Assembly: GCF_000566685.1 (NCBI RefSeq)
Contig: NZ_AZQN01000005.1
Span: 186,001-250,000 of the forward strand
From: Dyadobacter tibetensis Y620-1
GTDB taxonomy: Bacteria > Bacteroidota > Bacteroidia > Cytophagales > Spirosomataceae
Reading direction: 5' to 3'
Length of the DNA: 64,000 nucleotides
A program made the position numbers and the translations under genes. Below are positions 20,066 to 39,691 of the stretch, piece after piece; position 1 is the stretch's first letter, and every line of letters begins with the position of its first letter. Under the pieces are notes generated by a model that saw only the letters and a program-made list of their open reading frames with translations, had not been told where the DNA came from and searched no databases.

Positions 20066-20073
20066 TACATTTG
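20066..20073 (+). promoter_or_regulatory. Candidate -7 promoter element of lpdA
   Basis: TAcaTTTG matches the TAnnTTTG consensus and lies 48 nt before the lpdA start codon. The nearest upstream TTTG (20034-20037) is 28 nt away, too far for a normal -33 element, so only the -7 half is supported. Confidence 0.35.
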
Positions 20074-20120
20074 TAACAAATTTATGACAACCCATTTCTT
20101 TACCATAAAAACAATAGAAA

Positions 20121-21518: not shown

Positions 21519-21535
21519 TTAAGTTGTTATACGTT

Positions 21536-21577
21536 AAAGAGAGAGGGGCTGTTCGCAAGAATGGCCCCTCTCTCTTT
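21536..21577. terminator. Bidirectional terminator between lpdA and the ChbG-like gene
   Basis: A perfect 14-bp stem (AAAGAGAGAGGGGC / GCCCCTCTCTCTTT, arms 21536-21549 and 21564-21577) with a 14-nt loop is followed by T residues. The distal arm touches the stop codon of the convergent deacetylase gene, so both transcripts can end on the same hairpin. Confidence 0.88.
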
Positions 21578-22578: not shown

Positions 22579-22718
22579 GAACTGAGGTGTTGATTGATAC
22601 GAATTTATAAAGGTATATTATTATACGCTACTCCACGCCAATCGTACTATATTACTTATCCCTCCACACATGGGTTTTGAAATTATCTGCCCCTTGACGG
22701 GATACGGCCTGATTGTAA

Positions 22719-23087
22719 ACTAAGGGCACTCAGTTAGAATAGTATAATGCGCATACTACCTCTGGTTTGAAATCCTTACAATGGGGAGCTACAGGCATGT
22801 CGTCCATATCGGCAAATTTTTATCCTGAAGTCCATAGCTGGTTATGCCGACATGCCAACGATCCTGCCAAGAAAGCCGATGGAATATGGCTCCAGTAAGA
22901 AATCGCTCAGATGGAACCGGTCATATCTCAAAAGTATCCAGTAAGTGTAAAATATTTTTTGAGCAGAAGTGGTCTTCCCTTAGAAATTAGTAGGGGTAAG
23001 TCGAAAGCGATATGGACAGCCGCGGAGCGGGCTAGCCTCGACCGTGTCCATACAACATTTTTAGGATGGTGCGATCGACTGGGATAA
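22719..23087 (+). pseudogene. Decayed C-terminal fragment of a dihydrodipicolinate synthase/N-acetylneuraminate lyase family gene
   Basis: One plus-strand frame reads for ~120 codons with two internal stops (TAG at 22740, TAA at 22896). Its translation holds YNAHTTSGLKSLQWGATG, then ISANFYPEVHSWLCRH, and after the TAA, QKYPVSVKYFLSRSGLP, ending at TAA 23085. This order matches my recollection of the C-terminal third of DHDPS-family aldolases (NANTATLLESL..GA.G, ANFYPEL..WLC, YP...KYYL...G.P). No start or N-terminal barrel half is visible upstream. The stops and missing 5' part mark it as a relic. It occupies most of the gap between the deacetylase and the PPTase. Confidence 0.5.
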
Positions 23088-23195
23088 AGGCAGGTTAATG
23101 GAGAGTTAGGTGTAAATTTAATTGATGCGTATAGGGTTTTAAGGCAACCGAGCTTCGTTGACCTTTAATTATTCAAGGCATTAGGGTTTCATGTT

Positions 23196-23909
23196 TTATA
23201 TTACTCCACCAACTAGGGCTATTTTTGCTGGATGAACAATAGTCCAGATATATTCTTCGTATTGCCAGCAATAAGCTTTAAATGAGGTAAAATATTGGAA
23301 GGATGCCTCCCAATGGTCATTTTGTCTATCAATAGATGCTATTTCAAAGATCTTTGGATTTACGGTAAGACCTGTTTTTATAGCCTTTGAAAGTGCTTCT
23401 TTAATGGTCCAAATAAGTGTATAGGGCTGTGGACTCGTTAATAGAGATCCGGATAGCAGATTGGCTCTCTCGGTTTCGGATAGGGGCACAAGTCGTGTCC
23501 AATCTTTGGTGAAATCAACTCGCTCAATGTCCAATCCTAAAGGAATGGCCTCGGGGAAAACAATACAAGTTGCCCATTCTCCGCTATGAGAGATGCTGAT
23601 CTGGCTATGGTTGACATCAGGATGCTCAATAATTGGTTGATTGAAAATTCCTGAGGATATCTGGACTGCTGCTGGAATGGGAACTTTCAAATAAGTCTTT
23701 AAAGCTGTTTTGGCTACATATCGCCCATGAAGATAGCTATATTGGCGGTTTATTGATGGGATAGAATTATAATATTCTAATTCGTTTGTACCTAAAAACT
23801 CCTCCTTAACTAATTGTAATTCAGAAAAATGTGCCTTGCATGAAACCATGGTTGCATCTCTGGTGACATCTTTTCCTCTTAGCCCTAGTGGGTTTATAAT
23901 GCAGTTCAT
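23196..23909 (-). CDS. Sfp-type 4'-phosphopantetheinyl transferase
   Basis: Transfers phosphopantetheine from CoA to the active serine of carrier proteins, converting apo-ACP to holo-ACP. The 237 residues carry the family motifs GLDIER (D127, E129) and WTIKEALSK (W167, K170, E171, K175), which hold Mg-CoA, plus the upstream SISHSGEWA segment. Length fits the broad-specificity Sfp class used by polyketide and nonribosomal synthases rather than AcpS. It is divergent from the megasynthase gene across a 247-bp promoter region, and is the obvious partner for the four ACP domains encoded there. Confidence 0.92.
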   Translation of the reverse strand: MNCIINPLGLRGKDVTRDATMVSCKAHFSELQLVKEEFLGTNELEYYNSIPSINRQYSYLHGRYVAKTALKTYLKVPIPAAVQISSGIFNQPIIEHPDVNHSQISISHSGEWATCIVFPEAIPLGLDIERVDFTKDWTRLVPLSETERANLLSGSLLTSPQPYTLIWTIKEALSKAIKTGLTVNPKIFEIASIDRQNDHWEASFQYFTSFKAYCWQYEEYIWTIVHPAKIALVGGVI

Positions 23910-24039
23910 CTGGATTCCTTGTTTTAAGTAATGTTCCTAAATATTTGTGGAGAGCAAAGGATAATGAAACCCTGAATATACGGAACTTCTAAAGGGTATA
24001 ACCTTTAATAAATACGATTTTTTAGTCGAAATACTTTGA

Positions 24040-24070
24040 TTTGCAAGACTAGAATGTTTTCGTAGTTTTG
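24040..24070 (+). promoter_or_regulatory. Consensus Bacteroidota promoter of the polyketide synthase gene
   Basis: TTTG at 24040-24043, a 19-nt spacer and TAgtTTTG at 24063-24070 match the TTTG-N19-TAnnTTTG promoter class exactly. Transcription would begin near 24077, giving an ~80-nt leader. The 12-bp self-complementary run GATCGATCGATC (24071-24082) directly follows and covers the predicted start point, a possible operator. Confidence 0.7.
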
Positions 24071-24156
24071 GATCGATCGATCATTTAGCACCGCAGAATT
24101 TACTGCGTTTCTCCCATTCTTTTTCAGGAAAAATAAATCTAAACATTTCAACGTAT

Positions 24157-25782
24157 ATGAAGATGCAAAGTACCGATTCAATCCAGGAGACCCTACTACG
24201 CCTAGCTACAGTTGAGACCAGGCCATTCTTAGAAGATACGCGAGCCGAGCGAGATCTAAAACAGCTGTGTCAATATGGTTTATTAAATGTCTTAGTCAAG
24301 ATGGGCATAGAAAATAAGCCCTTAGAAGGAATAAGATCATCTTTAGGTATTGCTGAAAAACTGGATAGGTTTTGGGCGGAATTATTTTCGGAGCTGTTGG
24401 CAGATGGAATATTAGAGGTTAATGCTGACAGGTTGCACATACCTTTTCATGTTATGGAGTTACTTCGAAACTTCGATTTTGAAAGAGATAGTGAATTGTT
24501 GATTCGGTCCAATGCTAGCTACATACCATATGTGAAGCAGTTGAGATTATGCCTAAGTTGTTATGTTGATTTGTTAAAAGGTATAATTCCGGCCACGGAC
24601 GTGATTTTTCCAAATGGAGACCTTGAAAATGTTAGCGGGATTTATAAAAATAATTATCGGGCAAATTATTTTAACGATATTCTCGGGGAACTAGTAGCTG
24701 GAAGTGTGGCCAATTCCGTAGGGTCGTTAAACCCTGGAGATAAAATACGCATATTGGAAATCGGTGGCGGCACTGGAGGTACAAGTGAAGGGCTTTTCAA
24801 AAGACTAGCTCCATTTAGTGCAAATCTGGAGTATACCTTCTCAGATGTTTCAAGGAGTTTTCTATTCTATGCGGATCGATATATGGAGGTAGCCCCCTAC
24901 ATTAAAACCGCATTATTCAATATTGAAGAACCGGCTTCCAACCAGAAAATACCTGCTGGTTTCTTTGACATTATAGTAGGGGCCAATGTGGTTCATGCGA
25001 CGCGTAATATTAACAAAACGCTCCAGAATTTAAAGTCGGTAATGAAGAAGGGAGGTCTGATGATTTTAAATGAGATTGCTCAGACAGAATTTTTTTATAC
25101 AGTTACCTTCGGTTTACTCGATGGCTGGTGGCTTTATGAGGACGAGCACCTTCGTCTCAAAGGCTGCCCTGGGTTGAGTAGTGAAAGCTGGAAGATTGTA
25201 TTGGATCAAACAGGGTTTACTTCGGCAAGTTTTTACCCGAGGGGGCTTCAGTTACCACAACAGATAATTGCGGCTGTGAGTGATGGTAAAGGAGGCAAAG
25301 TTCAATTACCTCCCTCGATACTTCCGCACCTTGAGCATAGTTCGACTGAAGTCGATTTATCTATAAAAAGCATTGATTTGGATTGGTTAAAAGACAAACT
25401 ATTAACTATCGCTGCGGAGACCATCAAACTTCCAAAAGAAGAATTCAACATAGACGAAAGATTCTCTGATTATGGTTTTGATTCTATTTTGGGCACAACT
25501 CTGATCAAAAATATGAATGATGATCTGGGAATCAATCTTAAAACCATCGATATTTTTAACTATCCTGATATTACCTCCATGGCGGAATATATCAAGGTTC
25601 AGTTTGCAGAAACTATACAAATTCCCGTTGCATCCCCAAAATCAGAGTCAAGAGGCTCAACCATCCTTACGGGTGAAGTAACCGAGAATCTAGGTGGAAA
25701 TAGTAATAGAACAATCTCAAGTCCGGAAAATTCTAAAATTGAGCCAGCTAAAGTATTGGGAGAAAGTATTGACCATAGAGGT
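24157..25782 (+). other. PKS starter segment: C-methyltransferase-like domain and ACP1
   Basis: Residues 1-542. An N-terminal helical lid (~10-100) precedes a SAM-binding core with ILEIGGGTGGTSE (~199-211) and VGANVVHATRNI, then the FGLLDGWWLYEDEHLRL stretch typical of polyketide C-methyltransferases. ACP1 has the attachment motif YGFDSILG (S443). No KS, GNAT, adenylation or CoA-ligase domain accompanies them, so how the first acyl unit is chosen is not explained. A methylated malonyl- or acyl-ACP starter is the simplest reading. Confidence 0.82.
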
Positions 25783-28700
25783 GAGCAAGTGGCGATTATT
25801 GGAATGAGTGGAAAATTTGGAGCTGCTGAAAGCCTTGAAGTTTTTTGGGAGACAATCAGAGAGGGAAGGAGCTTAATTGAGGAAGTACCGGCCAATCGTT
25901 GGGATAAGAACGTGCATTATAGTGCGAGTAAAAACGAACCTGGAAAAACGAATAGTAAGTGGGGTTCATTTTTAAGGGATACAGATAAATTTGATCCATT
26001 ATTTTTCAAAATCTCAGGGAGGGAAGCCGAAGTAATGGATCCCCAGCAACGTTTATTTATGGAGGAGTGCTGGAAAGCCTTGGAAGATGCGGGGATAAAT
26101 CCTCAAAAACTCAAATCAAGCAAGACTGGAGTGTTTGTTGGTGCCGGACCTAGCGACTATCTTGATGGGGAAGATAGCAAGGAGGCGGCTTCTTTTTGGG
26201 GGAACGCTAGTTCTATCCTTGCTTCACGGATATCATATTTCTTAGACCTTAAAGGTCCTGCTGTTTCCTTAGATACTGCTTGTTCCAGTTCGTTAGTTGC
26301 CCTAGATTTAGGGTGCAAGAGTCTTCTTACCAATGAGACTGATCTAATTCTTACCGGAGGGGTATGGTTAGCCACTCGTCCTGATTTTTACAAGCAAACA
26401 AGTAAAGCTGGGATGCTCTCTCCTGATGGGCAATGTTATACATTCGATAGTCGTGCCAATGGATTTGTACCTGGGGAAGGAGTAGGGGTGGTAATACTTA
26501 AGCGATTATCGGACGCTGAGCGCGACGGGGATCGTATTTATGGTATTATTAAGGGGAGCCTTACTAATCAAGATGGAGCCACAAACGGGATTACGGCACC
26601 AAGCTCGCTGGCTCAACAGGCATTAGAAACCGAAGTTTATACCAAATTTAATATCGACCCTCATACCATTGGTTGCGTAGAAGCGCATGGTACGGGTACA
26701 AGTCTTGGAGACCCCATCGAATTTGAAGCCCTTTCGGCTAGTTTTCAAAAGTTTACCGGTGATAAAGGTTTTTGTAGCCTAGGGAGTGTAAAAACAAATA
26801 TTGGTCACACGGTGATGGCTTCTGGGGTAGCGGGAATTATCAAAGTTTTGCTTTGTTTCAAACACAGGTTACTGGTACCTAGTCTGAATTATGTGCAACA
26901 AAATCCATTGATCAGTGTTCCGGATAGTCCATTTAAGATTCAGCAAAAATCGGAAACCTGGCTCCCTTCTGGAAATTTCCCTCGACGTGCTACCGTGAGC
27001 AGTTTTGGGTTTAGCGGAACGAATGCCCATGTTGTTCTGGAAGAATATATTTCAAAAAATAGAGAGAAGTACACCAGTACGGAACCGGCAATTTTTGTAT
27101 TGTCAGCCAGGGACAAGGATTGTCTTAAAACACAAGTTAAGAATCTACTTTTTTATACAAAACAGTATGAAGGAATAGATCTCTATGCAATGGCTTATAC
27201 GCTGCAGGTAGGAAGGGAACCCATGGAACAACGCCTGTCCTTCACGGCTAAACATATGGTCGATTTGCAGGAGAATTTACAGGCGTATTGCAATGCAGAG
27301 TCCGGTCGGTATTATGAAGGTGATGGTTTAGTACAGAAAGAACAATTTTTTCTACAAGGAGCTCCAGGCACGTCAACTGTTGAGGCTGCTATTCAAGCCA
27401 AGGATTCCGAAACACTTGCTCAACTTTGGGCAAAGGGTATGACCATAGATTGGGTAGACTTGTATTCTGAGAAAAGACCGGAGAAGATTAGTCTGCCCAC
27501 TTACCCTTTTTTGCGAGACAGGTACTGGATTGCCCAAGATAATCAGATGGGAAGATCAGAACAGAAGATGTTGCACCCCTTGGTACAAGAGAATATCTCC
27601 ACATTCGCAAAACAAAGCTATAGGACAGTCCTTACTGGCGAGGAAGTTTTCGTAAAAGATCATAAGTTATTTGGTCAGACTGTTTTTCCTGGCGTAGCTT
27701 ATTTAGAAATGGCACGGCATGCGACCAGTATATCTTCAGGACAGGAGATAAAACAGCTCCGAAACGTTAGTTGGGTTAATCCTCTCCATTTCGATCAAGG
27801 CATAAAAGAACTGGCAATCAAGACGGAGTTGGGTAGAAAGGGTATCATTTTTGAGGTAACAAACTGGAATGGAGACTCAAATTTGTACTGTAGGGGAGAG
27901 GCAAATTATGAAACACTACCACAAATTGATTCTATCGATATCAATGCGCTTCAAAGGAGCTTTTCTTATGGCTCTAATCGACTGGAGAGTTATGAGCAAT
28001 TTAAGGCGATGGGTCTTACCTATGGTCCTGGTTTTCAAGGGATACATACGCTATATAATGGGTTGAATGTAGCATTGGCTTCAATTGAGCTGGTTCCAAA
28101 TCCGGGCTTTATGCTTGATCCTTCAATCATGGATAGTGCTGTCCAAACGTGCTTATCAGTGATGCTCCGTGAAGATAAAAATCGTACGGTGGTTCCCTTC
28201 CGGGTCAAAGAGGTTAATATTTATGCTGATTTGCCAAATCGTATATGGAGTTATGCCCGAAAATCCGGAACTAATATGGATGGAGTCAAAAATAGCCTGC
28301 TGACTTATGATATCGATCTGTTCGATATGCAGGGGAGGGTATTGGTTCAATTAAAAGCTTTCTCTTTCTCTCCAATGAATCCGGAAGCCAAACGTCCAGA
28401 AGCCATCGAATTCTCACATCCTGCTTTGCATTTGTTTGGTAACCATTGGAATGAAAGGGAACCGGGGAGAGGGATTGTAAATAGCGACTTAACAACTCCT
28501 ACAATTTTACTAGCTGGCGGCTCAGCTCGGTTGGCTGATGCACTTAGCCAAGAAACGAAGATGCCCGTAGAATCAATTTCATGCCAGACCGCCGAGGATT
28601 TATTTTTTACGGTACTGCAAAAAATAAAATCTGGAATGGAACAAAGGGTTCCACTTCATTTTATAGTATTGGTCCAAAATCATGAATTTGCTGAATATGG

Positions 28701-31700
28701 ATATATCACTGGGTTGTTAAAAACGGCTAATCAAGAAAACGCCTCAATTAGTGGGAGAGTAGTAGGGGTCGAAAGACTCATTTCGAACGAGCAAAAATGG
28801 TTGGCGTCAATACTAACTTTTGAAAAGGATAAGATAGAATCAGAGGTAAGGTACATTAATGGGAAGAGGCAGGTAAAATCACTCGACCCGATGATTAGCA
28901 TTTCATCAGTCCCGCTTTCGGTTGCGATTAAGGAAGGAGGGGTTTATTTGATTGCCGGAGGTATGGGAGGACTGGGACAAATTTTTGAAAGACACATTCA
29001 TAAGGTGACCGGAACCCGTGTCATTCTTACTGGGCGACGGGACGGGGCTGTACTACCATTGAATTTGATGAATAATGGATCGGAAAGGGAATATAGATCC
29101 TGTGATTTATCGTCTAGAGCTGATGTAGATCGACTTTTAAACGAAATTATTGCTAAGTATGGCCGCATAGATGGAATTATTCACAGTGCTGGAGTACTTC
29201 GGGATAATTTATTGCATAAGGACACTCCCTGGTCAGATATTCAAGAAGTACTTGAACCAAAGATTCAAGGTGTGAAAAATCTTGATCTAGCGAGCCAGGA
29301 GTTTGATTTGGACTTCATGGTGTACTTCTCATCCGTAGCGGGAGTCATAGGGAACTCGGGCCAAGCAGCATATGCAGCTGCCAATGCTTACCTAGATCAT
29401 TATGCTCAGTTCCGAAATGAGCTTGTAGAGGATGGCAGGAGAAAAGGTAAGACCCTGAGTATAAATTGGCCGTATTGGAAGGCCGGGGGGATGCAGATGG
29501 ATCTGGAGCATCAGCGGTATTTAAAGAATGTTTTTGGGCTTAAGCCCATGTCCGAAGCGGTTGGCTTAGCTGCGTTTGAGCAGATTCTGCGATCCGCCAA
29601 TGGTCAGGTGGTAGTTGGCTATGGAGAGGGTGATAAAATTTTTAAATCCTTTTCAGAAAGGCAAGTGATTATGCTTTTGGCCAAAACAAAAGTGAAGCAG
29701 GCCATACATAACGGAGGTGCATCTGAATCCGGGGCAGTAAATTCAGATCTAATACCAGAGCTTGTAAGAATACAAATTCAACAAATAGCATCGGAGATTT
29801 TAAAATTTGACCAGAAGACCATACGGGTTGACAAGGATCTTATGGGTTATGGATTCGACTCAAATATGTTGGCACGTTTTGCCAATGATCTTAACGATTA
29901 TTATGGGATAGATTTGGCGCCTACGGCTTTTTATAATTATTCCACTATTAACGAACTGGTCAGTCATCTCACTGAGAACTATAGTCAAGAGTTGCATCAG
30001 AAATATCGGGAGGAATCCCAGCAAGAGGGGTTGACTTCAGTATCAGAATCCTCCGTTATTGGTAATAAGGGGGAGGAGCTGCCCAATTTTCCCTCGATGA
30101 AGTCTCATCATTCTTACGAAGATTTCACTCCTTACCAAGCTAGTAACGAACCTGTAGCGATAGTAGGTATTTCCGGCCGATTTCCAGGAAGTGAAGATTT
30201 AGCCACTTTTTGGGAGCAAATAAGAGATAAAAAGGATTTGGTTACGGAGATCCCTGAGGAACGCTGGGACTGGCGGGAGTATTATGGTGATCCTCGAAAA
30301 GACCTCTATAAGACCAAAGCCAAATGGGGAGGTTTTATATCAGATATGGATAAGTTTGATCCCTTGTTTTTCGAAATTTCGCCTGTCGAGGCCGAGCTCA
30401 TGGATCCTCAGCAGCGCATTACCTTGGAGGCCGTTTACAGCGCCTTAGAGGATGCTTCCATTCCTGCAGCTAAGCTCAGAGGCTCTAATACAGGGGTTTT
30501 CATTGGCGTTCTCAATAATGATTACACCATGTTACTAGGCCAGCAAAAGGACCTGATCATTCAAGCCCAAATTTCTAGTGGTAATCTGCGAACCATCTTG
30601 GCGAACCGGGTTTCTTATCTATTGGACTTACATGGTCCTAGTGAACCGATTGATACTGCTTGCTCTAGTTCTTTAGTGGCTGTGCATCGAGCAGTGGAAA
30701 ATATTCGCTCAGGGCGTTGTAAGGTAGCTATAGCAGGGGGGGTAAATGCTATACTCTCTCCAGAGACTACCATATCCATCAGTAACGCAGGGATGCTTAG
30801 CGAAGATGGTAGGTGTAAGACTTTCGACCAAAGTGCCAATGGATATGTCCGTGCCGAAGGAGTAGGCATTGTAATTCTGAAGTCTTTATCAGAGGCTGAA
30901 CGCGATGGAGACCGGATTTATGGTATAATCAGAGGTACGGCAGAGAATCATGGGGGAAAGGCCAATACGCTTACCTCTCCTAATCCCCAGGCGCAAAAGG
31001 AGCTTCTCCTAAGCGCTTATCGCTCTGCCAATGTAGATCCCAGTAGAGTAAGCTATATAGAAGCTCATGGTACGGGAACCTCTATGGGTGACCCTATTGA
31101 AACTGAGGGTTTAAAGATGGCTTTCGCCACTCTATACAAAGAGAAGGGTTTGTCCATACCCTCAGAGCCTATTTGTGGGATAGGCAGTGTAAAAACAAAT
31201 ATCGGTCATTTGGAGTCTGCCGCCGGAATGGCAGGTATCATCAAGGTTTTATTATCTCTGAAGTATCAAATGATTCCCGGTAACCCGCAATTGAATACTC
31301 CAAATGAATTTTTGAGACTTTCAGGTAGTCCTTTCTATTTGCAGAAGGATACTACTCCATGGTTTAGTCCAATGGGTATGCCAAGAATTGCCGGGGTAAG
31401 TGGTTTCGGATTTGGCGGCGCTAATGCACACATTATTATCGAAGAGTACCTTGGGGGAAGTAAAAAACGATTTGAAAGTACTGAACCGTCGGTTCTTCTG
31501 TTATCAGCAAAAAATACGGAGAGATTAAAAGCTAAGGTAAAAGACTTATTGACCCATATTCAGGTAAACCCTTTGACCGATCTCAATGATATGGCCTATA
31601 CCTTGCAGGTCGGTAGAGATCCGATGCGAGAACGACTGAGTATTATTGCCAAAAACATTCCCGAACTGCAGGGGTATCTAAGCGACTTCTTAGGGGGAAA

Positions 31701-34700
31701 ATCAGATGGTATGTATCGAGGGAGTATAGTATCAAATGAGCTTCTTTCAGATCTGGAAGAGGAGCAGTTGAGATCACAGGCGCAAAAGGCCCTTTCTGGC
31801 AAGGACTACCATTCTTTGGCCTCATTATGGGTGAAAGGTGCCGATATAGCCTGGTCTAAGCTTTATGGTGATATAAAACCAGTAAAAATAGCTTTACCGA
31901 CTTACCCTTTTGCAAGGAAAAGATATTGGATCCCGCAGTCCAAACAGGTTATAAATCCTTCTGGAAACCTGACCATACATCCGTTAGTACATCGAAATAG
32001 TTCAACTCTTAAATCACATAAATATTCCAGTTTATTTAGCGGAAAAGAATCCTTTATAAAGGATCATAAAGTGGGTGGAAAGTGCTTAATGCCTGGAGTA
32101 GCTTACATAGAGATGATCAGCCAAGCGGGATCCATGAGTACTCAGAAAAGGGTTACGCAGTTAAACAATGTAAGTTGGCATAATGCCTTTCATCTAACGG
32201 GAGATACCCAAGAAATAGAGATAAAAATAGAGCAATCGAGACAAGATTTTGGTTTTAATGTTTCGACTTTTGGTCAGGAATCGAACCTATCGTTATGTTC
32301 TGGATCATTCAGCACCTTTCCTCTTGTAGAAGTAGCAGCCATCGATTTGGAGGCCATAAAAAGTCGGTTGAGTGACGTGACAGCAGGGGATGATTGCTAT
32401 ACAATATTTCGGGAAGCTGGCCTTGAGTATGGAAGTAGCTTTCAAGGAATAAGCACGTTATTTATGGGGGACAGCGAATCTCTAGCCTTTATAGAATTGC
32501 CTGTCGACGCAAGATATTCACTAAATCCTGGACTTATAGATAGCGCTTTACAAACTTGTTTGGGAACAATAATGACGTCTACTGGTTTACCAAGCGCATT
32601 GGTTCCTTTTGCCGTGAGGCAAGTCAATTTATACCAGGCACCAACCGACAGGATATGGGCTTATGCTATCAAAAAATCCAAGGTGGTGGGACAAAATGAG
32701 ATCATCAGTTTTGATATTGAGATCACAGATGATTCGGGCCAAGTGCATTTGCAATTTAAGGATTTATCGGTGCTAAGCCTGAGTGGAGAACCTGTTTTAC
32801 AACCAAAAAAATCGGGTTTGGCCCATGCGGAAAGCTTGCATCTGTTTGATTATTCCTGGCAGGAGACCTTAGATGTAACTTTGGGATATCAATCAGGGTT
32901 GATACCTGCTCAGATTATTCTTCTGGAAGAGAAAAATTCTGAACTTGCATCAGCTTTAGGTGATATTCTGAATTTACCTGTAAAGAGCCTTTCTGATTCA
33001 GAAGTCGCAGACTTATTTAATGGATTGCTGGACATATTAAAGGAGAATATAACGAAGCAACGTTCTGGACCGATCTTACTATTCTATAATTCAGCCCAGG
33101 TACTTCGTTATGGTTTTTTGTCGGGACTTTTAAGAACTTTACAGCTTGAAAATGAACGTCTCACTCCTCGGATGATAGGCGTAGAAATGTTAAGAATGGA
33201 AAGTCCGCTCGCTATGGCGGCGCTGATTAAAAGCGAACTGGAAATTCCTTTTACTAAAACTGAAATGGAAATTCGGTATGTAGAGGGAAGAAGACAAAGC
33301 AAGAGACTACAAATTTTTTCGACTGAACAATCCTCGGTAGCTGCTATGGCTCAGGAACAGGGGGTTTATCTGATTACAGGAGGTGTGGGGGCGTTGGGAT
33401 ATTTGTTTGCACATTACTTGACTAAGACGAAGGACGTTCAGGTAGTTATAACTGGTAGAAGACCTGCCTCGGAGGTAAAGAACTTCGAAAATATTAATTA
33501 TCTGCAATGTGACGTAAGTGATGCAGATGCGGTTAGGGCATTAATACAGGAAATAACCGTACGATTTGGGAAGCTCAATGGTATCCTGCATAGTGCTGGG
33601 GTAACGCGAGATAGTTTTATTATGAATAAAACCTCCAAAGAAGTTAGGGAAGTTTTCGCTCCAAAGGTAAAAGGGGTACAAAATCTGGATCAAGCAATAG
33701 GAGATACCCCTTTGGATTTCTTCATTTTATTCTCCTCTTTGGCAGCCGTCAAAGGCAATATTGGACAGGCTGACTATGCGGCGGCCAATGCTTATCTGGA
33801 TCAATTTGCCCATGAGCGCAATAAGCGCGTAGCAAATGGAGTGAGCAAAGGTAGGACTTTAAGTATTAACTGGCCTCTATGGGCCGAAGGAGGAATGTCC
33901 GTCAATGAGGGCAGCGCACATTATCTGGAGAAGAAATGGGGGATGATGCCAATGCCAAGTCAAGAAGGAATAAAAGCCTTTGAAAAACTATTGGGTTCGT
34001 CTCTGAGTCAAGGAGTCGTCATGTATGGTCAAAAAGAAAAGTTAATTGATGAGCCTCTGAACAAAATTAATCGTGGATCCAAGATTCAGCTTCAAGCAGC
34101 TGACAGAACCTTGTTTCAGACGATTTTGGAAAAAGATATTTTAAAGCTCATCGCTCAGGTTCTAACTTATGATGTAGAGGATCTGATGCCTGATGTCGAA
34201 CTAAGTAGTTATGGTTTCGATTCGATAATTTTAACCAAGTTTACCAATCAATTCAACGACTATTACGAGCTTGACTTGTCTCCAGCTGAATTTTTTACTT
34301 ATTCAACTATACGGGAGCTGGCTGGTTTTATGATCGATCATTATCTAGACGAGATAGGACCTAAATATAGTCATCTGATTAGTAATCTCACTTCTGAAGT
34401 AGCGGAAGAGTCTAGAATTTTGCCAAACGGACCTACTGGGAGGTATCCTAATTCAAAATCTAATCCTTCAACAAAAGATGATGATGAAAAGGATCCGGTA
34501 GCCATTGTGGGGATGTCAGGTCGTTTTCCTGGGTCTGAAAATTTGGTGGAATTTTGGGAGCAGCTAACAGGTAACAAGGACCTTATCCGTGAAATTCCAC
34601 CTGACCGATGGGACTGGAAATCATACTATGGAGATTCCCGTCGTGATGCGCTAAAAACGAAAGCAAAATGGGGAGGTTTTATTTCTGATATAGATAAATT

Positions 34701-36669
34701 TGACGCCTCTTTTTTTGAAATTTCAGCCCGAGAAGCGGAATTGATGGATCCCCAGCATAGGATAACCTTAGAGGCTGTGTTTTCTGCTTTAGAGGATGCG
34801 GGTATTCCAACCAGTAAGTTGAAGGGAACTAGTGTGAGTGTATTTATTGGAGTGCTAAATAACGACTATGCCGATTTGTTAAGCGAGCAGCGGGAGCTTC
34901 GTGTGCATGCTCATTATGCTACAGGTAATACCCATTCAATGCTGGCTAATCGTATCTCGTATCTATTGGATATTCATGGCCCGAGTGAACCAATCGATAC
35001 GGCTTGCTCCAGTTCATTGATAGCCTTAAACCGTGCAGTGGATAGTATTCAGTCTGGCCGTTGCGCAATGGCTATTGCTGGAGGAGTGAACTCTTTGCTC
35101 TCTGTAGATACTACCTTGGCTGTAAGTAATGCTGGTATGCTGAGTGAAGATGGCAGATGCCGGACGTTCGATCAGCGTGCCAATGGATATGTTCGAGCGG
35201 AGGGTGTAGGAATATTGGTTTTAAAATCACTCAGCCAGGCCCAAAAAGATGGTGATCACATTTATGCCCTTATTCGGGGAACCGCCGAAAATCATGGTGG
35301 AAGAGCTAATACTCTAACTTCTCCCAACCCGATTGCCCAGAAGGAAGTAATATTGAATGCTTATCGTCGCGCGGGTGTAGATCCTCGTACGATAAGCTAT
35401 ATTGAGGCTCATGGCACCGGGACAGCTCTAGGAGATCCCATTGAGGCGGAAGGATTGAAAATGGCATTTGAAACCCTCTTTAATGAATGGGGGTTAAGTA
35501 CTCCTTCTCATCCTGTATGCAGTATAGGGAGTGTCAAAACCAATATTGGTCACCTAGAGTCTGCGGCAGGGGTAGCGGGTGTAATTAAGGTGTTATTATC
35601 TATGAAACATCGCATCCTTCCGGGAAACCCTCAATTAGAAAATGCAAATGAGTTTCTTCGACTGAACGGAAGCTCCTTTACCCTTCAAAAGAAAACTACA
35701 CCCTGGATTTCTCCTGAAAATACTCCTCGGAGGGCAGGGGTCAGTAGTTTCGGATTTGGGGGAACTAATGCGCATATCGTTTTGGAAGAATACATTCCAT
35801 CCGTTCCAGCTGATTTATCTCAGCAAGAACAGGTAATAATTCTGCTTTCAGCCAAAAACAAAGATAGGCTAAGGAAACGTGTGGAAGATTTACATGCCTA
35901 TTTAGTACTCAATCCAGAAGTTTCTATCCATCAGGTAGCCTATACGCTCCAAGTAGGTCGAGATCATTTATCACAGAGAATGGGCTTTGTAACCGTTTCT
36001 GTCATCGAATTACAGGAAAAACTGAAAAATTTTCTAAAGGATGATGCTGTTTTTTGTGAGGGCCATACAGATGAGGGAAATGGGCCGGTTAAATTATTAG
36101 ATAGCGATAAAGGGAATCGACTTCTAGACCTGGGCCAGTACGAGCAGCTCTTAGAATTATGGTGTTTGGGGGGAGTAGTAGATTGGAAAAGACTATACCC
36201 CTTGGGCAGTCCGGGGAAAATAAGTCTACCCACCTATCCCTTTGCTCGGGAGCGCCATTGGATCCTCCCTTCTCCGGAGAAAAAAAGCCATAGCCAGATA
36301 GTCGCAATCCCGGTTGCAATTCGAGAAGAAAACTCTGAAACTTATGGAATGGGTCTACCCTTAAGTCGTATAGGTGAACCTGACTTCTTAGATCTGTTAA
36401 AAGATCGGTTGGCTATTATAGCGGCTGAGACTGTTAAAAAAATGAAAAGTGATATTGATATCGAGAAGGATTTTTTTGAAAATGGTTTCGATTCCTTGTC
36501 GGGTGTGGAGCTTATCCGCAATATAAATGCTGTACTTCCAATTACACTAGACTTTGCCGACCTATTTAGCAATCCAACTATTTCCACACTTTCGGACTAT
36601 ATATATGCCCAGCTATCGACAGGGATTTCTTATGGGCCCCAAGTCCTTACGAATTCCATTCATAAATAA
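24157..36669 (+). CDS. Trans-AT polyketide synthase megasynthase, 4170 aa: MT-ACP / KS-DH-KR-ACP / KS-DH-KR-ACP / KS-ACP
   Basis: Modular type I polyketide synthase acting in the cytoplasm. Domains in order (active Ser of each ACP in brackets): methyltransferase ~30-385, ACP1 (S443); KS1 543-965, DH1 1139-1408, KR1 ~1440-1800, ACP2 (S1902); KS2 1998-2431, DH2 ~2605-2875, KR2 ~2915-3280, ACP3 (S3356); KS3 3446-3880, ACP4 (S4113). There is no AT, ER or TE domain. Each KS is followed by a short linker ending LPTYPF.R.R.W, as in synthases loaded in trans. All KS, DH and KR catalytic residues are intact. AT and ER are supplied by the next gene. The first ATG at 24157 or a second at 24163 may start it. 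The product is unknown. Confidence 0.95.
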   Translation: MKMQSTDSIQETLLRLATVETRPFLEDTRAERDLKQLCQYGLLNVLVKMGIENKPLEGIRSSLGIAEKLDRFWAELFSELLADGILEVNADRLHIPFHVMELLRNFDFERDSELLIRSNASYIPYVKQLRLCLSCYVDLLKGIIPATDVIFPNGDLENVSGIYKNNYRANYFNDILGELVAGSVANSVGSLNPGDKIRILEIGGGTGGTSEGLFKRLAPFSANLEYTFSDVSRSFLFYADRYMEVAPYIKTALFNIEEPASNQKIPAGFFDIIVGANVVHATRNINKTLQNLKSVMKKGGLMILNEIAQTEFFYTVTFGLLDGWWLYEDEHLRLKGCPGLSSESWKIVLDQTGFTSASFYPRGLQLPQQIIAAVSDGKGGKVQLPPSILPHLEHSSTEVDLSIKSIDLDWLKDKLLTIAAETIKLPKEEFNIDERFSDYGFDSILGTTLIKNMNDDLGINLKTIDIFNYPDITSMAEYIKVQFAETIQIPVASPKSESRGSTILTGEVTENLGGNSNRTISSPENSKIEPAKVLGESIDHRGEQVAIIGMSGKFGAAESLEVFWETIREGRSLIEEVPANRWDKNVHYSASKNEPGKTNSKWGSFLRDTDKFDPLFFKISGREAEVMDPQQRLFMEECWKALEDAGINPQKLKSSKTGVFVGAGPSDYLDGEDSKEAASFWGNASSILASRISYFLDLKGPAVSLDTACSSSLVALDLGCKSLLTNETDLILTGGVWLATRPDFYKQTSKAGMLSPDGQCYTFDSRANGFVPGEGVGVVILKRLSDAERDGDRIYGIIKGSLTNQDGATNGITAPSSLAQQALETEVYTKFNIDPHTIGCVEAHGTGTSLGDPIEFEALSASFQKFTGDKGFCSLGSVKTNIGHTVMASGVAGIIKVLLCFKHRLLVPSLNYVQQNPLISVPDSPFKIQQKSETWLPSGNFPRRATVSSFGFSGTNAHVVLEEYISKNREKYTSTEPAIFVLSARDKDCLKTQVKNLLFYTKQYEGIDLYAMAYTLQVGREPMEQRLSFTAKHMVDLQENLQAYCNAESGRYYEGDGLVQKEQFFLQGAPGTSTVEAAIQAKDSETLAQLWAKGMTIDWVDLYSEKRPEKISLPTYPFLRDRYWIAQDNQMGRSEQKMLHPLVQENISTFAKQSYRTVLTGEEVFVKDHKLFGQTVFPGVAYLEMARHATSISSGQEIKQLRNVSWVNPLHFDQGIKELAIKTELGRKGIIFEVTNWNGDSNLYCRGEANYETLPQIDSIDINALQRSFSYGSNRLESYEQFKAMGLTYGPGFQGIHTLYNGLNVALASIELVPNPGFMLDPSIMDSAVQTCLSVMLREDKNRTVVPFRVKEVNIYADLPNRIWSYARKSGTNMDGVKNSLLTYDIDLFDMQGRVLVQLKAFSFSPMNPEAKRPEAIEFSHPALHLFGNHWNEREPGRGIVNSDLTTPTILLAGGSARLADALSQETKMPVESISCQTAEDLFFTVLQKIKSGMEQRVPLHFIVLVQNHEFAEYGYITGLLKTANQENASISGRVVGVERLISNEQKWLASILTFEKDKIESEVRYINGKRQVKSLDPMISISSVPLSVAIKEGGVYLIAGGMGGLGQIFERHIHKVTGTRVILTGRRDGAVLPLNLMNNGSEREYRSCDLSSRADVDRLLNEIIAKYGRIDGIIHSAGVLRDNLLHKDTPWSDIQEVLEPKIQGVKNLDLASQEFDLDFMVYFSSVAGVIGNSGQAAYAAANAYLDHYAQFRNELVEDGRRKGKTLSINWPYWKAGGMQMDLEHQRYLKNVFGLKPMSEAVGLAAFEQILRSANGQVVVGYGEGDKIFKSFSERQVIMLLAKTKVKQAIHNGGASESGAVNSDLIPELVRIQIQQIASEILKFDQKTIRVDKDLMGYGFDSNMLARFANDLNDYYGIDLAPTAFYNYSTINELVSHLTENYSQELHQKYREESQQEGLTSVSESSVIGNKGEELPNFPSMKSHHSYEDFTPYQASNEPVAIVGISGRFPGSEDLATFWEQIRDKKDLVTEIPEERWDWREYYGDPRKDLYKTKAKWGGFISDMDKFDPLFFEISPVEAELMDPQQRITLEAVYSALEDASIPAAKLRGSNTGVFIGVLNNDYTMLLGQQKDLIIQAQISSGNLRTILANRVSYLLDLHGPSEPIDTACSSSLVAVHRAVENIRSGRCKVAIAGGVNAILSPETTISISNAGMLSEDGRCKTFDQSANGYVRAEGVGIVILKSLSEAERDGDRIYGIIRGTAENHGGKANTLTSPNPQAQKELLLSAYRSANVDPSRVSYIEAHGTGTSMGDPIETEGLKMAFATLYKEKGLSIPSEPICGIGSVKTNIGHLESAAGMAGIIKVLLSLKYQMIPGNPQLNTPNEFLRLSGSPFYLQKDTTPWFSPMGMPRIAGVSGFGFGGANAHIIIEEYLGGSKKRFESTEPSVLLLSAKNTERLKAKVKDLLTHIQVNPLTDLNDMAYTLQVGRDPMRERLSIIAKNIPELQGYLSDFLGGKSDGMYRGSIVSNELLSDLEEEQLRSQAQKALSGKDYHSLASLWVKGADIAWSKLYGDIKPVKIALPTYPFARKRYWIPQSKQVINPSGNLTIHPLVHRNSSTLKSHKYSSLFSGKESFIKDHKVGGKCLMPGVAYIEMISQAGSMSTQKRVTQLNNVSWHNAFHLTGDTQEIEIKIEQSRQDFGFNVSTFGQESNLSLCSGSFSTFPLVEVAAIDLEAIKSRLSDVTAGDDCYTIFREAGLEYGSSFQGISTLFMGDSESLAFIELPVDARYSLNPGLIDSALQTCLGTIMTSTGLPSALVPFAVRQVNLYQAPTDRIWAYAIKKSKVVGQNEIISFDIEITDDSGQVHLQFKDLSVLSLSGEPVLQPKKSGLAHAESLHLFDYSWQETLDVTLGYQSGLIPAQIILLEEKNSELASALGDILNLPVKSLSDSEVADLFNGLLDILKENITKQRSGPILLFYNSAQVLRYGFLSGLLRTLQLENERLTPRMIGVEMLRMESPLAMAALIKSELEIPFTKTEMEIRYVEGRRQSKRLQIFSTEQSSVAAMAQEQGVYLITGGVGALGYLFAHYLTKTKDVQVVITGRRPASEVKNFENINYLQCDVSDADAVRALIQEITVRFGKLNGILHSAGVTRDSFIMNKTSKEVREVFAPKVKGVQNLDQAIGDTPLDFFILFSSLAAVKGNIGQADYAAANAYLDQFAHERNKRVANGVSKGRTLSINWPLWAEGGMSVNEGSAHYLEKKWGMMPMPSQEGIKAFEKLLGSSLSQGVVMYGQKEKLIDEPLNKINRGSKIQLQAADRTLFQTILEKDILKLIAQVLTYDVEDLMPDVELSSYGFDSIILTKFTNQFNDYYELDLSPAEFFTYSTIRELAGFMIDHYLDEIGPKYSHLISNLTSEVAEESRILPNGPTGRYPNSKSNPSTKDDDEKDPVAIVGMSGRFPGSENLVEFWEQLTGNKDLIREIPPDRWDWKSYYGDSRRDALKTKAKWGGFISDIDKFDASFFEISAREAELMDPQHRITLEAVFSALEDAGIPTSKLKGTSVSVFIGVLNNDYADLLSEQRELRVHAHYATGNTHSMLANRISYLLDIHGPSEPIDTACSSSLIALNRAVDSIQSGRCAMAIAGGVNSLLSVDTTLAVSNAGMLSEDGRCRTFDQRANGYVRAEGVGILVLKSLSQAQKDGDHIYALIRGTAENHGGRANTLTSPNPIAQKEVILNAYRRAGVDPRTISYIEAHGTGTALGDPIEAEGLKMAFETLFNEWGLSTPSHPVCSIGSVKTNIGHLESAAGVAGVIKVLLSMKHRILPGNPQLENANEFLRLNGSSFTLQKKTTPWISPENTPRRAGVSSFGFGGTNAHIVLEEYIPSVPADLSQQEQVIILLSAKNKDRLRKRVEDLHAYLVLNPEVSIHQVAYTLQVGRDHLSQRMGFVTVSVIELQEKLKNFLKDDAVFCEGHTDEGNGPVKLLDSDKGNRLLDLGQYEQLLELWCLGGVVDWKRLYPLGSPGKISLPTYPFARERHWILPSPEKKSHSQIVAIPVAIREENSETYGMGLPLSRIGEPDFLDLLKDRLAIIAAETVKKMKSDIDIEKDFFENGFDSLSGVELIRNINAVLPITLDFADLFSNPTISTLSDYIYAQLSTGISYGPQVLTNSIHK
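25783..30147 (+). other. PKS module 1: KS1-DH1-KR1-ACP2
   Basis: Residues 543-1997. KS1 has C709 (DTACSSS), H844 (HGTGT) and H884 (KTNIGH). DH1 has H1169-x3-G-x4-P and D1326-x3-Q1330. KR1 has the NADPH motif GGMGGLG (1601-1607) and S1726, Y1739, N1743; a conserved Asp in GVLRDN suggests a B-type ketoreductase. ACP2 attaches at S1902 (YGFDSNML). Expected work: one two-carbon extension, reduction and dehydration to an alpha,beta-alkene. Confidence 0.88.
30148..34491 (+). other. PKS module 2: KS2-DH2-KR2-ACP3
   Basis: Residues 1998-3445. KS2 has C2169, H2304 and H2351. DH2 has H2637, G2641, P2646 and D2795-x3-Q2799. KR2 has GGVGALG (from G3075) and S3194, Y3207, N3211, with Asp in GVTRDS. ACP3 attaches at S3356 (YGFDSIIL). 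The layout repeats module 1 and would add a second alkene unit. Confidence 0.88.
34492..36669 (+). other. PKS module 3: KS3-ACP4, no reductive or release domain
   Basis: Residues 3446-4170. KS3 is complete (C3617, H3752, H3799), so it should condense rather than only transfer. After the linker ending LPTYPFARERHW comes ACP4 (S4113, NGFDSLSG). With no KR or DH, the last beta-keto group should remain. No thioesterase, condensation or reductase domain follows, so release depends on another protein. Confidence 0.86.
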
Positions 36670-36684
36670 TGGCTATTAGCCATT
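36668..36684 (+). repeat. Short hairpin between the PKS and AT-ER genes
   Basis: AATGGCT-ATT-AGCCATT forms a perfect 7-bp stem with a 3-nt loop. It starts in the PKS stop codon and ends 22 nt before the AT-ER start. There is no T tract, so a full terminator is unlikely; it could affect translation coupling or mRNA processing. Confidence 0.4.
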
Positions 36685-36706
36685 GTCGAACTTTAAAAAT
36701 ATTGAT

Positions 36707-38941
36707 ATGAAAGCAGTTATGTTCCCCGGCCAGGGGTCACAATTTAAAGGAATGGGCAAGGACCTATTTAAGGGATACAAAACAGAAACTATTGGTGCTT
36801 CTGAACTACTAGGATATGATCTGGAAGAACTTTGTTTGCGGGATCCTCAGAAATTATTAAGTCAAACTCAGTATACCCAGCCGGCTATCTATACCGTCAA
36901 TTCCTTCGCTTATTTCGACCGTCCTACCCAGGTGCCATCTTATTTGATAGGTCATAGTTTAGGGGAGTATAATGCCCTACTGGCGAGTGGTGTATTCGAT
37001 TTTATGACGGGCTTAAAGTTGGTAAAAAAAAGAGGAGAACTTATGGCCGCCGCTTCTGGTGGAGGGATGGCGGCAGTTTTAGGAGTATCAAGGGAACATC
37101 TTATTCAACTGCTCGCGGCGGAGGGGTTTATGGATGTTGATATTGCTAATCTGAACACCCCCACACAGACTGTGTTGTCAGGGCCTAAAACGACGATGTC
37201 GCAAGTAATAAAACAGTTTCTTGAACGGAAAATAAATATTATTCCCTTAAATGTAAGTGCCCCTTTTCATTCTCGCTATATGAAAGCGGCAGCAGACGAG
37301 TTTAAAATATTTCTAAAGGGTATTATTTTCCATCCTCTGAAAATTCCGGTAATTGCCAACGTCATGGCTCTGCCATATAGTAATGAACAGATTGCATCGG
37401 TATTGAGTGCCCAAATCGCTGGCCCAGTGCAATGGGTTGATTCTATCCGCTTACTTGTGGGGTATGGAGTGGATACTTTCGATGAAGTTAATGGGACTTT
37501 ACTGACTAAAATGACCAATGAGATACGTCGAGAATGTAGTCCGATCTTGGATGATAAAGTGGATGACAAAATAAATCATATCATTACTGCTTCCGGGAGG
37601 ACTGGGAAAGATGTTGAAAACCAAGTAGATGCAACCAGCTTAGGTAGCAAGGATTTCAAAGCTTCCTATAGGGTGAAATATTCGTATGTTGTGGGATCTA
37701 TGTACAGAGGCATTTCATCGGCGGAAATGGTCATTAAATTGGCTCGTTCCGGGATTCTTAGCTTCTTCGGAAGCAACGAATTACCCTTAGATGTGGTTCA
37801 GCAAAATGTCAATCAAATTCAGGAGGCATTGAAAGGAAAGCATCCATTTGGTGTCGCTGTAAGGTATAACCCTAATGATACAAATTATGATATGCAGTTA
37901 ATAGACTTATGTCTTCAGCTGGGAGTCAAAAATATTGAAGTTTCAGCATACTTGCAGCTTACTCCAGCCCTCATTCGTTTTAAGGCAAAAGGTATGCGTC
38001 GAGATGTGAAAGGCAATCCTATGAATGAGCATCGCATAATGGCCAAGGTATCAAGGCCTGAAGTGGCCGAGACTTTTTTTCAGCCTCCTTCGCAAGGCGA
38101 TTTAGTAAAACTTGTAGAACATGGATTAATTACTGACCAACAGGCACAGGATGTCTCTAAGGTTTCAATTGCCGATGATATCTGTGTAGAGTCCGAGACT
38201 GTTGGGGCGCTGGTGCTATTGCCAAGTATAATCTTATTACAGAAGCAGATTATAAAAAAATTTCCGGAGGCCATTAAGGTTCGGATCGGATTGTCGGGGG
38301 GAATTGGGACTCCCCAAGCGATAGCTTGTGCCTATGTTTTGGGTGCCGACTTCGTACTTACGGGCTCCATAAATCAATGTACTGTGGAAGCAGGAATTAA
38401 TGCGATTAGTAAAGATCTTCTCCAAGAAATTGATATTCATGATACTATCCTTGCTCCCTCGAGCGATTTCTTTGAAATGGGAGTTCAAGAGCAAGTTGTG
38501 AAAAAAGGGACGCTCTTTCCTTTAAGGGCTAGAAAGCTTTACACCCTATATTGTCAGTATAATTCGTTGGAGGAAATTCCGGAGAAAATTAAGTTTCAAC
38601 TAGAAAGAGATTTTTTCAAGGCACCCATAGCACAAATGCTTCAACATGTTCAAAACGAACTTCTTAAACAGAATAAATATGATGAACTAGATAGAGTTAA
38701 GCAACAGCCAAAGTTGATGCTGGGACAGCTTTTTCGATTATACTTGGAGCGGTCGCGTTTATTGCCCTTCCAAGAAGAGGACAGCAATAAAATGAATTTT
38801 CAATTAAGATCAAGCCCAGCATTGGGTGCTTTCAATCAATTCGTATGTAGTACCTCTTTAGAAAGTTGGCGCAATCGTTATGTGGATAAAATTGGCGTGA
38901 TGCTCATGGAACATGCCGCGGACATCTTATCTAAAAAATGA
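36707..38941 (+). CDS. Trans-acting malonyl acyltransferase fused to PfaD-type enoyl reductase
   Basis: Bifunctional helper of the trans-AT synthase. The start at ATG 36707 (MKAVMFPGQGSQ) is preferred because AT domains begin this way; an upstream TTG at 36683 is less likely. The AT domain (~1-280) has GQGSQ, the nucleophile in GHSLG (S84) and APFHS (H188), consistent with malonyl specificity. Residues ~310-744 are a flavin-dependent PfaD/2-nitropropane-dioxygenase-like enoyl reductase (SYRVKYSYVVGSMYRGISS..., IGLSGGIGTP, ADFVLTGSINQCTVEAG). AT-ER fusions occur in several trans-AT pathways (LnmG type). It lies 37 bp after the PKS gene and would load the ACPs with malonyl and could saturate enoyl intermediates. 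Confidence 0.93.
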   Translation: MKAVMFPGQGSQFKGMGKDLFKGYKTETIGASELLGYDLEELCLRDPQKLLSQTQYTQPAIYTVNSFAYFDRPTQVPSYLIGHSLGEYNALLASGVFDFMTGLKLVKKRGELMAAASGGGMAAVLGVSREHLIQLLAAEGFMDVDIANLNTPTQTVLSGPKTTMSQVIKQFLERKINIIPLNVSAPFHSRYMKAAADEFKIFLKGIIFHPLKIPVIANVMALPYSNEQIASVLSAQIAGPVQWVDSIRLLVGYGVDTFDEVNGTLLTKMTNEIRRECSPILDDKVDDKINHIITASGRTGKDVENQVDATSLGSKDFKASYRVKYSYVVGSMYRGISSAEMVIKLARSGILSFFGSNELPLDVVQQNVNQIQEALKGKHPFGVAVRYNPNDTNYDMQLIDLCLQLGVKNIEVSAYLQLTPALIRFKAKGMRRDVKGNPMNEHRIMAKVSRPEVAETFFQPPSQGDLVKLVEHGLITDQQAQDVSKVSIADDICVESETVGALVLLPSIILLQKQIIKKFPEAIKVRIGLSGGIGTPQAIACAYVLGADFVLTGSINQCTVEAGINAISKDLLQEIDIHDTILAPSSDFFEMGVQEQVVKKGTLFPLRARKLYTLYCQYNSLEEIPEKIKFQLERDFFKAPIAQMLQHVQNELLKQNKYDELDRVKQQPKLMLGQLFRLYLERSRLLPFQEEDSNKMNFQLRSSPALGAFNQFVCSTSLESWRNRYVDKIGVMLMEHAADILSKK

Positions 38942-38962
38942 GGCCTAAAAATAATATATCAA

Positions 38963-39691
38963 ATGAGCAATTCAAAGAGAAAAATATTCTTGCTGCATTT
39001 TGCAGGTGGAAGTAGATATTCTTACCAATTCCTTAGTCCGTATTTAGAGACTTTTGATTTAAGACCTCTGGAACTCCCAGGTCGGGGAAAACGACATCAG
39101 GAAAAGTTATTGGAAAGGTTTACGGATGCACTTGACGACATAACAAGTCAGATAGAAAAGGAAATTGAGCCCGATGTAGATCTTATTTTTGGACATAGCC
39201 TAGGTGCAATATTAGGTTTCTGGGTTACAGAACGTTTGGAGAAAATCAATAAAAAGCCTGGGTGCCTAATTGTTAGTGGCAATGCCAGCCCAGCAGTGGG
39301 CAAGTCAGATTTTTTGCAATCCTTACATCAGCTCCCTGAGGCAGAGTTTGCCAGTGCCCTTAGGAAAATGGGTGGAATTCCGGAAGAGCTTTTCCAAAAT
39401 AAAGACTTATACAAATTTTACGAACCTATATTACGAGCAGACTTAAAACTTGTAGATTCTGTAGGCGGTCTTATGCCTGGGCTGATCAGAACGTCTATAT
39501 TTGCAATGATGGGACACCAGGAAAAAAGTGCACATCGAATTGAACAGTGGCAGAGCTTCACCATTGCTGATTTCGAATATAAATGCATGGAAGGGGGACA
39601 TTTTTTTATTTATCAGCACCCCGAAAAAATCGCAAATATTATTCAAGATATAGATAGCTCGAAGAAACAAGTTGATCTTCTCGCCACATAG
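38963..39691 (+). CDS. Type II thioesterase
   Basis: Stand-alone thioesterase of 242 residues of the SrfAD/GrsT class. It has the N-terminal HFAGGSRYS, the ELPGRGKR segment, the nucleophile elbow GHSLG (S79) and a C-terminal EGGHFF with catalytic H213. Such enzymes usually hydrolyse stalled or mis-primed acyl groups from carrier proteins. Because the megasynthase has no TE domain, this protein may also release the finished chain; that is inference. It follows the AT-ER gene by 21 bp and ends at a terminator, closing the operon. Confidence 0.92.
   Translation: MSNSKRKIFLLHFAGGSRYSYQFLSPYLETFDLRPLELPGRGKRHQEKLLERFTDALDDITSQIEKEIEPDVDLIFGHSLGAILGFWVTERLEKINKKPGCLIVSGNASPAVGKSDFLQSLHQLPEAEFASALRKMGGIPEELFQNKDLYKFYEPILRADLKLVDSVGGLMPGLIRTSIFAMMGHQEKSAHRIEQWQSFTIADFEYKCMEGGHFFIYQHPEKIANIIQDIDSSKKQVDLLAT

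Follow-up and report, generated by a model that had tools for sequence, protein, structure and literature searches.

A 64,000-nucleotide stretch of the Dyadobacter tibetensis Y620-1 genome (contig NZ_AZQN01000005.1, positions 186,001 to 250,000), here called the window, contains a compact polyketide synthase (PKS) locus of the trans-acyltransferase (trans-AT) type. Its megasynthase begins with a C-methyltransferase (cMT) and an acyl carrier protein (ACP) domain. The reading we favour, to which we give roughly an even chance, is that this PKS was probably gained together with a segment of about 30 kb and makes one short polyketide, using the cMT-ACP as its loader. The locus belongs to a known enzyme class; its unusual part is the start, where a methyltransferase and a carrier domain stand in place of a recognised starter module.

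Gene content and catalytic domains of the locus

Four open reading frames (ORFs) were verified in the window, one on the minus strand (23196-23909) and three on the plus strand (24157-36669, 36683-38941 and 38963-39691). They encode a phosphopantetheinyl transferase (PPTase; Pfam ACPS, 3.7e-12) divergent to the PKS, a megasynthase of 4170 aa, a free-standing fusion of AT and enoyl reductase (AT-ER), and a stand-alone thioesterase (TE; Pfam Thioesterase, 1.3e-28). A first-pass annotation had proposed this set, with a three-ketosynthase megasynthase lacking an AT and a TE of type II, and ORF coordinates, Pfam, NCBIfam and motifs all agree with it. Pfam identified three ketosynthase (KS), two dehydratase (DH), two ketoreductase (KR) and four ACP stretches as well as one methyltransferase in the megasynthase. 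Together with domain profiles built during the analysis and a motif scan, this gives the order cMT-ACP / KS-DH-KR-ACP / KS-DH-KR-ACP / KS-ACP.

The cMT occupies residues ~1-385 (24157-25311) and carries the VVHAT and LNE motifs; it is followed by ACP0 (25360-25626, GFDS at residue 440). The first full module consists of KS1 (25777-27294), DH1 (27559-28401; PKS_DH_N/PS-DH, H1169 and DSAVQ at 1326), KR1 (28864-29676; Pfam KR and motifs, AGVLRD) and ACP1 (29740-29976; GFDS at 1899). The second consists of KS2 (30139-31686), DH2 (31963-32856; Pfam, H2637 and DSALQ at 2795), KR2 (33304-34056; Pfam KR and motifs, AGVTRD) and ACP2 (34108-34350; GFDS at 3353). KS3 (34486-36006), with the Cys-His-His motifs expected of a KS that condenses, and the terminal ACP3 (36364-36591; GFDS at 4110) complete the protein. 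By the stereotype rule, KR1 and KR2 are presumably B-type-like. Every catalytic motif scanned for was intact across the PKS, AT-ER and TE: KS Cys-His-His (3/3), DH HxxxGxxxxP and DxxxQ (2/2), the KR glycine-rich motif, Ser and Tyr-Asn (2/2), ACP GFDS (4/4), GHSLG and FHS in the AT, GHSLG in the TE, and the S-adenosylmethionine (SAM) motif with His and Glu in the cMT.

A profile search for a cis-AT domain found no acyltransferase family among the 20 Pfam families matched by the megasynthase at E≤0.001, and a free AT is present, so the earlier trans-AT call stands. The hallmarks of trans-AT type I PKSs are borne out: modules without an integrated AT, a free-standing AT of the malonyl type (a predicted substrate), and KSs akin to those of trans-AT PKSs. 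Within the best 60 of 195 solved relatives of the megasynthase, the top ones are the putative PKS 7zma, PksJ, PksL and AT-less PKS chains, and cis-AT enzymes rank lower. The AT-ER ORF matched Acyl_transf_1 in Pfam (8.6e-24) and, in NCBIfam, fabD (282.8 bits, cut-off 260.9) and the PfaD-family ER (483.8 bits, cut-off 449.25). Its nearest solved chains are DfnA (4cw5) and MlnA (4z38) for the ER part and DisD and PksE for the AT part; its start is more likely the ATG at 36707 than the TTG at 36683. The best PDB relatives of the stand-alone TE are 5ugz, 6vap and 2k2q (the surfactin TE subunit), with RifR lower. Its sequence kinship with these enzymes places it among the alpha/beta hydrolases of the type II (editing) group.

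The locus was also described at first as compact and lacking attached tailoring oxygenase, transporter, nonribosomal peptide synthetase (NRPS) or resistance genes. The Pfam scan agrees: none of 19 ORFs between 14347 and 54567 encodes a P450 or Fe/2OG oxygenase, a transporter, an NRPS or a known resistance protein. Four of the 19 have no Pfam family at all (14347, 15817, 39810 and 41708). A flavin pyridine-nucleotide oxidoreductase found at 20121 lies outside the lineage-specific segment described below.

A start resembling the second half of a split module

The cMT is complete, with both lid and core. In phmmer searches, residues 37-358 matched the DisA methyltransferase (6cca, E 3.9e-59), and further matches were AprA MT2 (6d6y) and CurJ (5thy, 7.1e-39). 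Nineteen loci were annotated with the profiles built during the analysis, and a subunit beginning MT-ACP-KS was found in three other lines. One is the bacillaene line, where it is the last subunit; the others are encoded on plasmids of Klebsiella grimontii and Agrobacterium vitis. The bacillaene line is that of Bacillus velezensis plasmid pDMB05-1, which we take from its gene order to be the bacillaene synthase. In all three lines the preceding subunit ends in KR, so that MT-ACP forms the rear half of a module divided between two subunits. Overlapping frames make two more MT-ACP-KS cases ambiguous, one in Methylosinus and one at a further Klebsiella site. PMC9113145 describes split modules as usual in trans-AT PKSs; the junctions given as examples in its accessible text are KS/KR, KS/DH and DH/KR, and KR/MT is not among them.

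A KS profile search of the whole 5.31-Mb assembly (completeness 100) gave 15 matches, three in the window PKS, three in a second PKS gene on contig C3 and nine in ORFs of 320-445 aa. Genome-wide, no modular KS that could belong to an upstream half-module was found beyond the window and C3 genes; no search aimed at a KR alone was made. Since the KS for the first half of the split module was not found in the genome, we call the line headless. The gene is not clipped by an assembly edge, because the contig extends ~210 kb further upstream. Only ~39 codons are open upstream of the megasynthase start, which rules out a hidden in-frame N-terminal domain reached from an earlier start. Elsewhere in the genome, six single-domain ketosynthase ORFs lie in two groups on contig C2 (G000 C2:49662-109625); from their layout we presume that these are possibly a flexirubin or aryl-polyene locus.

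Relationships of the ketosynthases

From the 19 loci 137 KSs were taken, 17 of ≤430 aa were dropped, and a FastTree phylogeny of the other 120, a set holding no cis-AT KSs, was built. In BLAST against ~119 other KSs, each of the ten best matches of KS1 comes after tandem ACPs, an arrangement linked to beta-branching. In the 120-KS tree KS1 is sister (0.876) to six MT-following KSs, the next node up having a support of 0.17. A 19-KS IQ-TREE analysis placed KS1 inside the joint methyl-branch group with a bootstrap of 99, sister support there being low. Both related groups are read as handling methyl branches because of their upstream domains. Since BLAST, FastTree and an approximately unbiased (AU) test do not pick one group, we say of KS1, from its sequence, that it groups with KSs for methyl-branched chains, alpha and beta branches not being told apart.

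KS2 and KS3 are sisters (0.858) and are 67% identical (66.7%). Next to them (1.0) is G192_KS10r, a KS of a large trans-AT line in genome G192 of the same order, which is 66.9% identical to KS2. The likeness of KS2 and KS3, taken per 50 residues, is 54-78% in the KS core and 30-46% after it, and their third codon positions agree at 36%. A recent copying of a module within the gene is ruled out by the identities of DH1 to DH2 (37%) and KR1 to KR2 (43%), and by KS2 being equally near G192_KS10r. The most that the data make likely is an ancient duplication or conversion of the KS.

The locus lies in a lineage-specific segment

Alignment to two genus relatives and GC content delimit a segment of ~30 kb around the locus (22530-52300, edges approximate). 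Genome G251 matches the window at 17894-22527 (79%) and from 52325 onward (68% at the edge), and there the two blocks lie ~1.3 kb apart. In G293 the matches stop at 22521 and restart at 53644, ~1.8 kb apart. The absence of the segment rests on these two aligned relatives. Its GC content is 0.405, and that of the flanks 0.450 and 0.451. A search for exact repeats of at least 12 bases, direct or inverted, between 22450-23200 and 51300-52700 found none. Among 47 other genus genomes none has a homologue of the AT-ER at E≤1e-40, and at the same threshold a response regulator of the segment (40961-41659) was matched only in its own genome. The upstream neighbour of the locus (YdjC-like) was found in 44/47 at E≤1e-60, though one of these matches (G397, 56% identity) is perhaps a paralogue. 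The segment was probably gained in this lineage, with loss in the relatives as the alternative.

Of 390 genomes in the order, six besides this one were matched by a cMT-ACP query at E≤1e-10, the top match having 42% identity. These matches sit in larger trans-AT lines (G154, G103, G038 and G192) or in integrated-AT PKSs (G002 and G286). The window's domain order occurs in none of the six within the stretches taken; this supports in part the earlier claim that no known pathway has this order. Among 395 phylum genomes the same query gave only its own match at E≤1e-30. A scan of genome contigs, which relies on a handful of short peptide patterns and may overlook relatives, returned five loci at 32-38% identity, three from Paenibacillus, one from Methyloglobulus and one from a Lysobacterales metagenome-assembled genome. 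In the plasmid collection, PKS residues 1-1348 matched 743 records (best by coverage ranking 37.9% identity) and the AT-ER matched 25 (best 43.7%). As an aside on the order, the G038 locus (C1:276000-310000; L036, L037) is a trans-AT PKS with a cMT, tandem ACPs and a free AT. Its genome is 1.2 Mb in one contig and 99% complete, a small size that suggests a host-dependent symbiont.

Besides the PKS genes the segment holds two response regulators, one histidine kinase and two Por-tail proteins. The regulator at 40961-41659 (plus strand; LuxR/NarL-type by Pfam) is a candidate regulator of the locus. The histidine kinase (48660-50759) and a LuxR-type response regulator (50874-51512) are neighbours inside the segment and could possibly control the locus. 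The Por-tail (secreted) proteins are encoded at 42766-45750 and 46570-48561 and fit an origin in the Bacteroidota.

Proposed biosynthesis and product

In the favoured reading the ACPs would be armed by the PPTase and loaded with malonyl by the AT domain of the AT-ER, as is established for these enzyme families. The cMT-ACP at the N-terminus, which in its relatives completes a split extension module, would act as the loading module. ACP0 would receive a small acyl group, most simply a malonyl that is methylated to methylmalonyl, decarboxylated to propionyl and passed to KS1. The first two full modules would each extend, reduce and dehydrate, and KS3 would add a last unit that is kept as a beta-ketone. 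The trans-ER may saturate one alkene. As the megasynthase carries no TE domain, we infer release by the free type II TE, or else by spontaneous chemistry, which would yield a 3-oxo-diene acid of about nine carbons, its decarboxylation product or a pyrone. By domain rules the predicted product is a short 3-oxo-dienoic acid that may carry a methyl branch, or a compound derived from it. A propionyl starter would give 3-oxo-nona-4,6-dienoic acid before ER action, acetyl a C8 acid and isobutyryl a branched C10 acid. The methyl that the cMT may add to the product did not figure in the first-pass annotation.

Several observations weigh against this reading. No recognised loading module or enzyme was found in the locus by Pfam, only the cMT and ACP preceding KS1. 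Recognised loaders of trans-AT PKSs are GNAT, KSQ, acyl ligase and FkbH, which are not strictly required. PKS cMTs normally work on beta-ketoacyl-ACP, and methylation of a starter would be unusual. No thioesterase family was found in the megasynthase by Pfam, so that no TE domain follows ACP3. The AU test rejected neither placement of KS1 (p 0.46 for grouping it with the MT-following KSs, 0.29 for grouping it with those that follow tandem ACPs), and other MT-following KSs, among them bacillaene_KS5 and Kgrim_KS5, lie far from KS1 in the tree. The locus had been described as a self-sufficient unit. The gene set is as described; self-sufficiency itself does not follow from a start that is a split-module half in three lines and a chain end without a TE.

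A second compact locus and a shared protein family

The same genome holds a second compact trans-AT PKS (C3:1101027-1111517) with the order KS-DH(weak)-KR-ACP-ACP-ACP-KS-KS-ACP-TE, thus ending in a TE domain, and with its own PPTase and AT-ER. The window locus is still an orphan, as was first proposed, but it is one of two. The C3 operon (L015:1613-18118; G000 C3:1096612-1113117) also encodes a 198-aa protein, an acyl-CoA dehydrogenase-like protein and a short-chain dehydrogenase/reductase (SDR). The AT-ERs of the two loci are 43% identical and the window AT-ER is 50% identical to that of G192; the loci are therefore not recent copies of each other.

Beside the window PKS, on the opposite strand, lies a gene for a 201-aa protein without a Pfam family (39807-40412, minus strand). 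It is 34% identical (E 1e-42) to its paralogue, the 198-aa protein of the C3 locus (L015:5404-6000), whose gene stands inside the operon and overlaps the AT-ER start with its stop by 4 bases. Each compact locus thus carries an AT-ER, a PPTase and one member of this family. The 201-aa protein had no Pfam match at E≤5 and nothing significant in NCBIfam or the PDB, and the family had no match in plasmids and no relative in viral contigs. It is rare, occurring in 1/389 other order genomes at E≤1e-4 and in 4/394 further genomes of the phylum at E≤0.01, where the G736 match is weak (0.002). A conserved GxDRY motif is shared by the window and C3 proteins and the members at L046:11058-11630, L066:9438-10034, L067:11488-12084 and L068:10092-10661. 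The neighbours of these last four are SDRs and a TauD-like gene (L046), by eye an efflux-type set resembling TolC, HlyD and MFS (L066 and L067), and other genes (L068). No PKS genes were present in the stretches read at these four places, which weighs against a role of the family in PKSs only. Its association with PKSs has so far been seen in this genome only. A comparison with ATC hydrolase (PF14196) by hhalign gave a probability of 1.2% (E 0.045), five control profiles giving 0.2-0.5%, with thin profiles on both sides (Neff 2.6 and 2.2). The AlphaFold2 single-sequence model had a mean pLDDT of 35.4, and a search of 61 genomes yielded no V4R sequence.

The N-terminal cMT, the 201-aa gene, the second trans-AT PKS and the lineage-specific segment had all been missed by the first-pass annotation. 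Taken together they admit a bolder proposal, which we offer tentatively and think more likely wrong than right: the PKS would have lost its head, the orphaned cMT-ACP would have become a self-priming loader that makes a methyl-branched starter from malonyl-ACP and SAM, and the 201-aa family would be a partner of small trans-AT lines.

Alternative explanations

The megasynthase might be the truncated tail of a larger line that lost its upstream modules, the remaining genes being inactive or trace producers. This would fit the MT-ACP start, which three relatives use as one half of a split module. It would also fit the KS1-DH-KR-ACP-KS2 stretch, whose layout recurs inside the large G192 line, and the 50% identity of the AT-ER to that of the G192 line. 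We nevertheless consider truncation unlikely, given that the 12.5-kb frame is open with its scanned catalytic motifs intact, which is moderate evidence, and that the PPTase, AT-ER and TE have been retained. Iterative or out-of-order use is another explanation, and one we think a little less probable still. Here KS1 or KS3 would make beta-ketoacyl chains that go back to ACP0 for methylation by the cMT, giving a longer, alpha-methylated product. ACP0 is 46% alike to ACP3 and 29% to ACP2 (ACP1 was left out of this comparison), and cMTs serving other modules have been proposed for alpiniamide (PMC6113372). Yet no sequence feature requires iteration, and KS1 lies directly downstream of ACP0.

The two PKSs of this genome might also work jointly, one feeding the other, since both loci carry an AT-ER, a PPTase and a 201-aa-family gene. 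That each has its own trans enzymes makes this improbable, as does the TE domain at the end of the C3 megasynthase. Moreover, the first KS of the C3 protein groups with subunit-N-terminal KSs (1.0), and the AT-ERs are less alike than those of the window and G192. Hardly any credence is due to a polyunsaturated fatty-acid synthase, which is called up by the NCBIfam PfaA model (TIGR02813, 1029.1 bits, cut-off 1010.1) and the PfaD-family ER. The PfaA score is summed over eight stretches of a three-KS protein, neither an integrated AT nor a tandem ACP array was found, and among solved structures the megasynthase is closest to trans-AT or AT-less PKS chains.

Significance and comparison with known systems

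Specialists may find the headless start and the paired 201-aa protein surprising. The PKS, AT-ER and TE together span 15.5 kb, small enough for expression as a whole, so that they could serve as a direct test system. Such a unit could show whether a cMT-ACP can start a line without a KS, at what point the trans-ER intervenes, and if a finished chain can be released by a type II TE. The locus also draws attention to a protein family that lacks a Pfam model and has a member at each of this genome's two compact trans-AT loci. A literature search of partial coverage found no paper on the locus or on a trans-AT PKS initiated by a cMT-ACP.

The large G192 line resembles the window locus in its AT-ER and in a KS-DH-KR-ACP-KS block of the same layout, and two of its KSs are close to KS2, G192_KS10r (67%) and a 401-aa partial KS (KS2r, 69%). 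Unlike the window, it has ten KS matches and tandem ACPs upstream of the shared block, and no MT was found there. Another trans-AT PKS of the Bacteroidota is that for elansolid in Chitinophaga, at almost 80 kb (PMC9248904). The two systems are likened by description and not by sequence.

Among solved structures, AprA MT2 of apratoxin biosynthesis (6d6y, E 9.7e-43) is the second-best relative of the window cMT. It sits in the apratoxin loading module. Methylation of malonyl has been proposed for the apratoxin starter (PMC5355916). In the window, by comparison, only the cMT and ACP precede KS1. The last bacillaene subunit, like the window PKS, starts MT-ACP-KS and ends KS-ACP, and its cluster includes an AT-ER. 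It differs in that an upstream subunit ending DH-KR completes the module, a DH-ACP lies in mid-subunit, and ten KSs were found.

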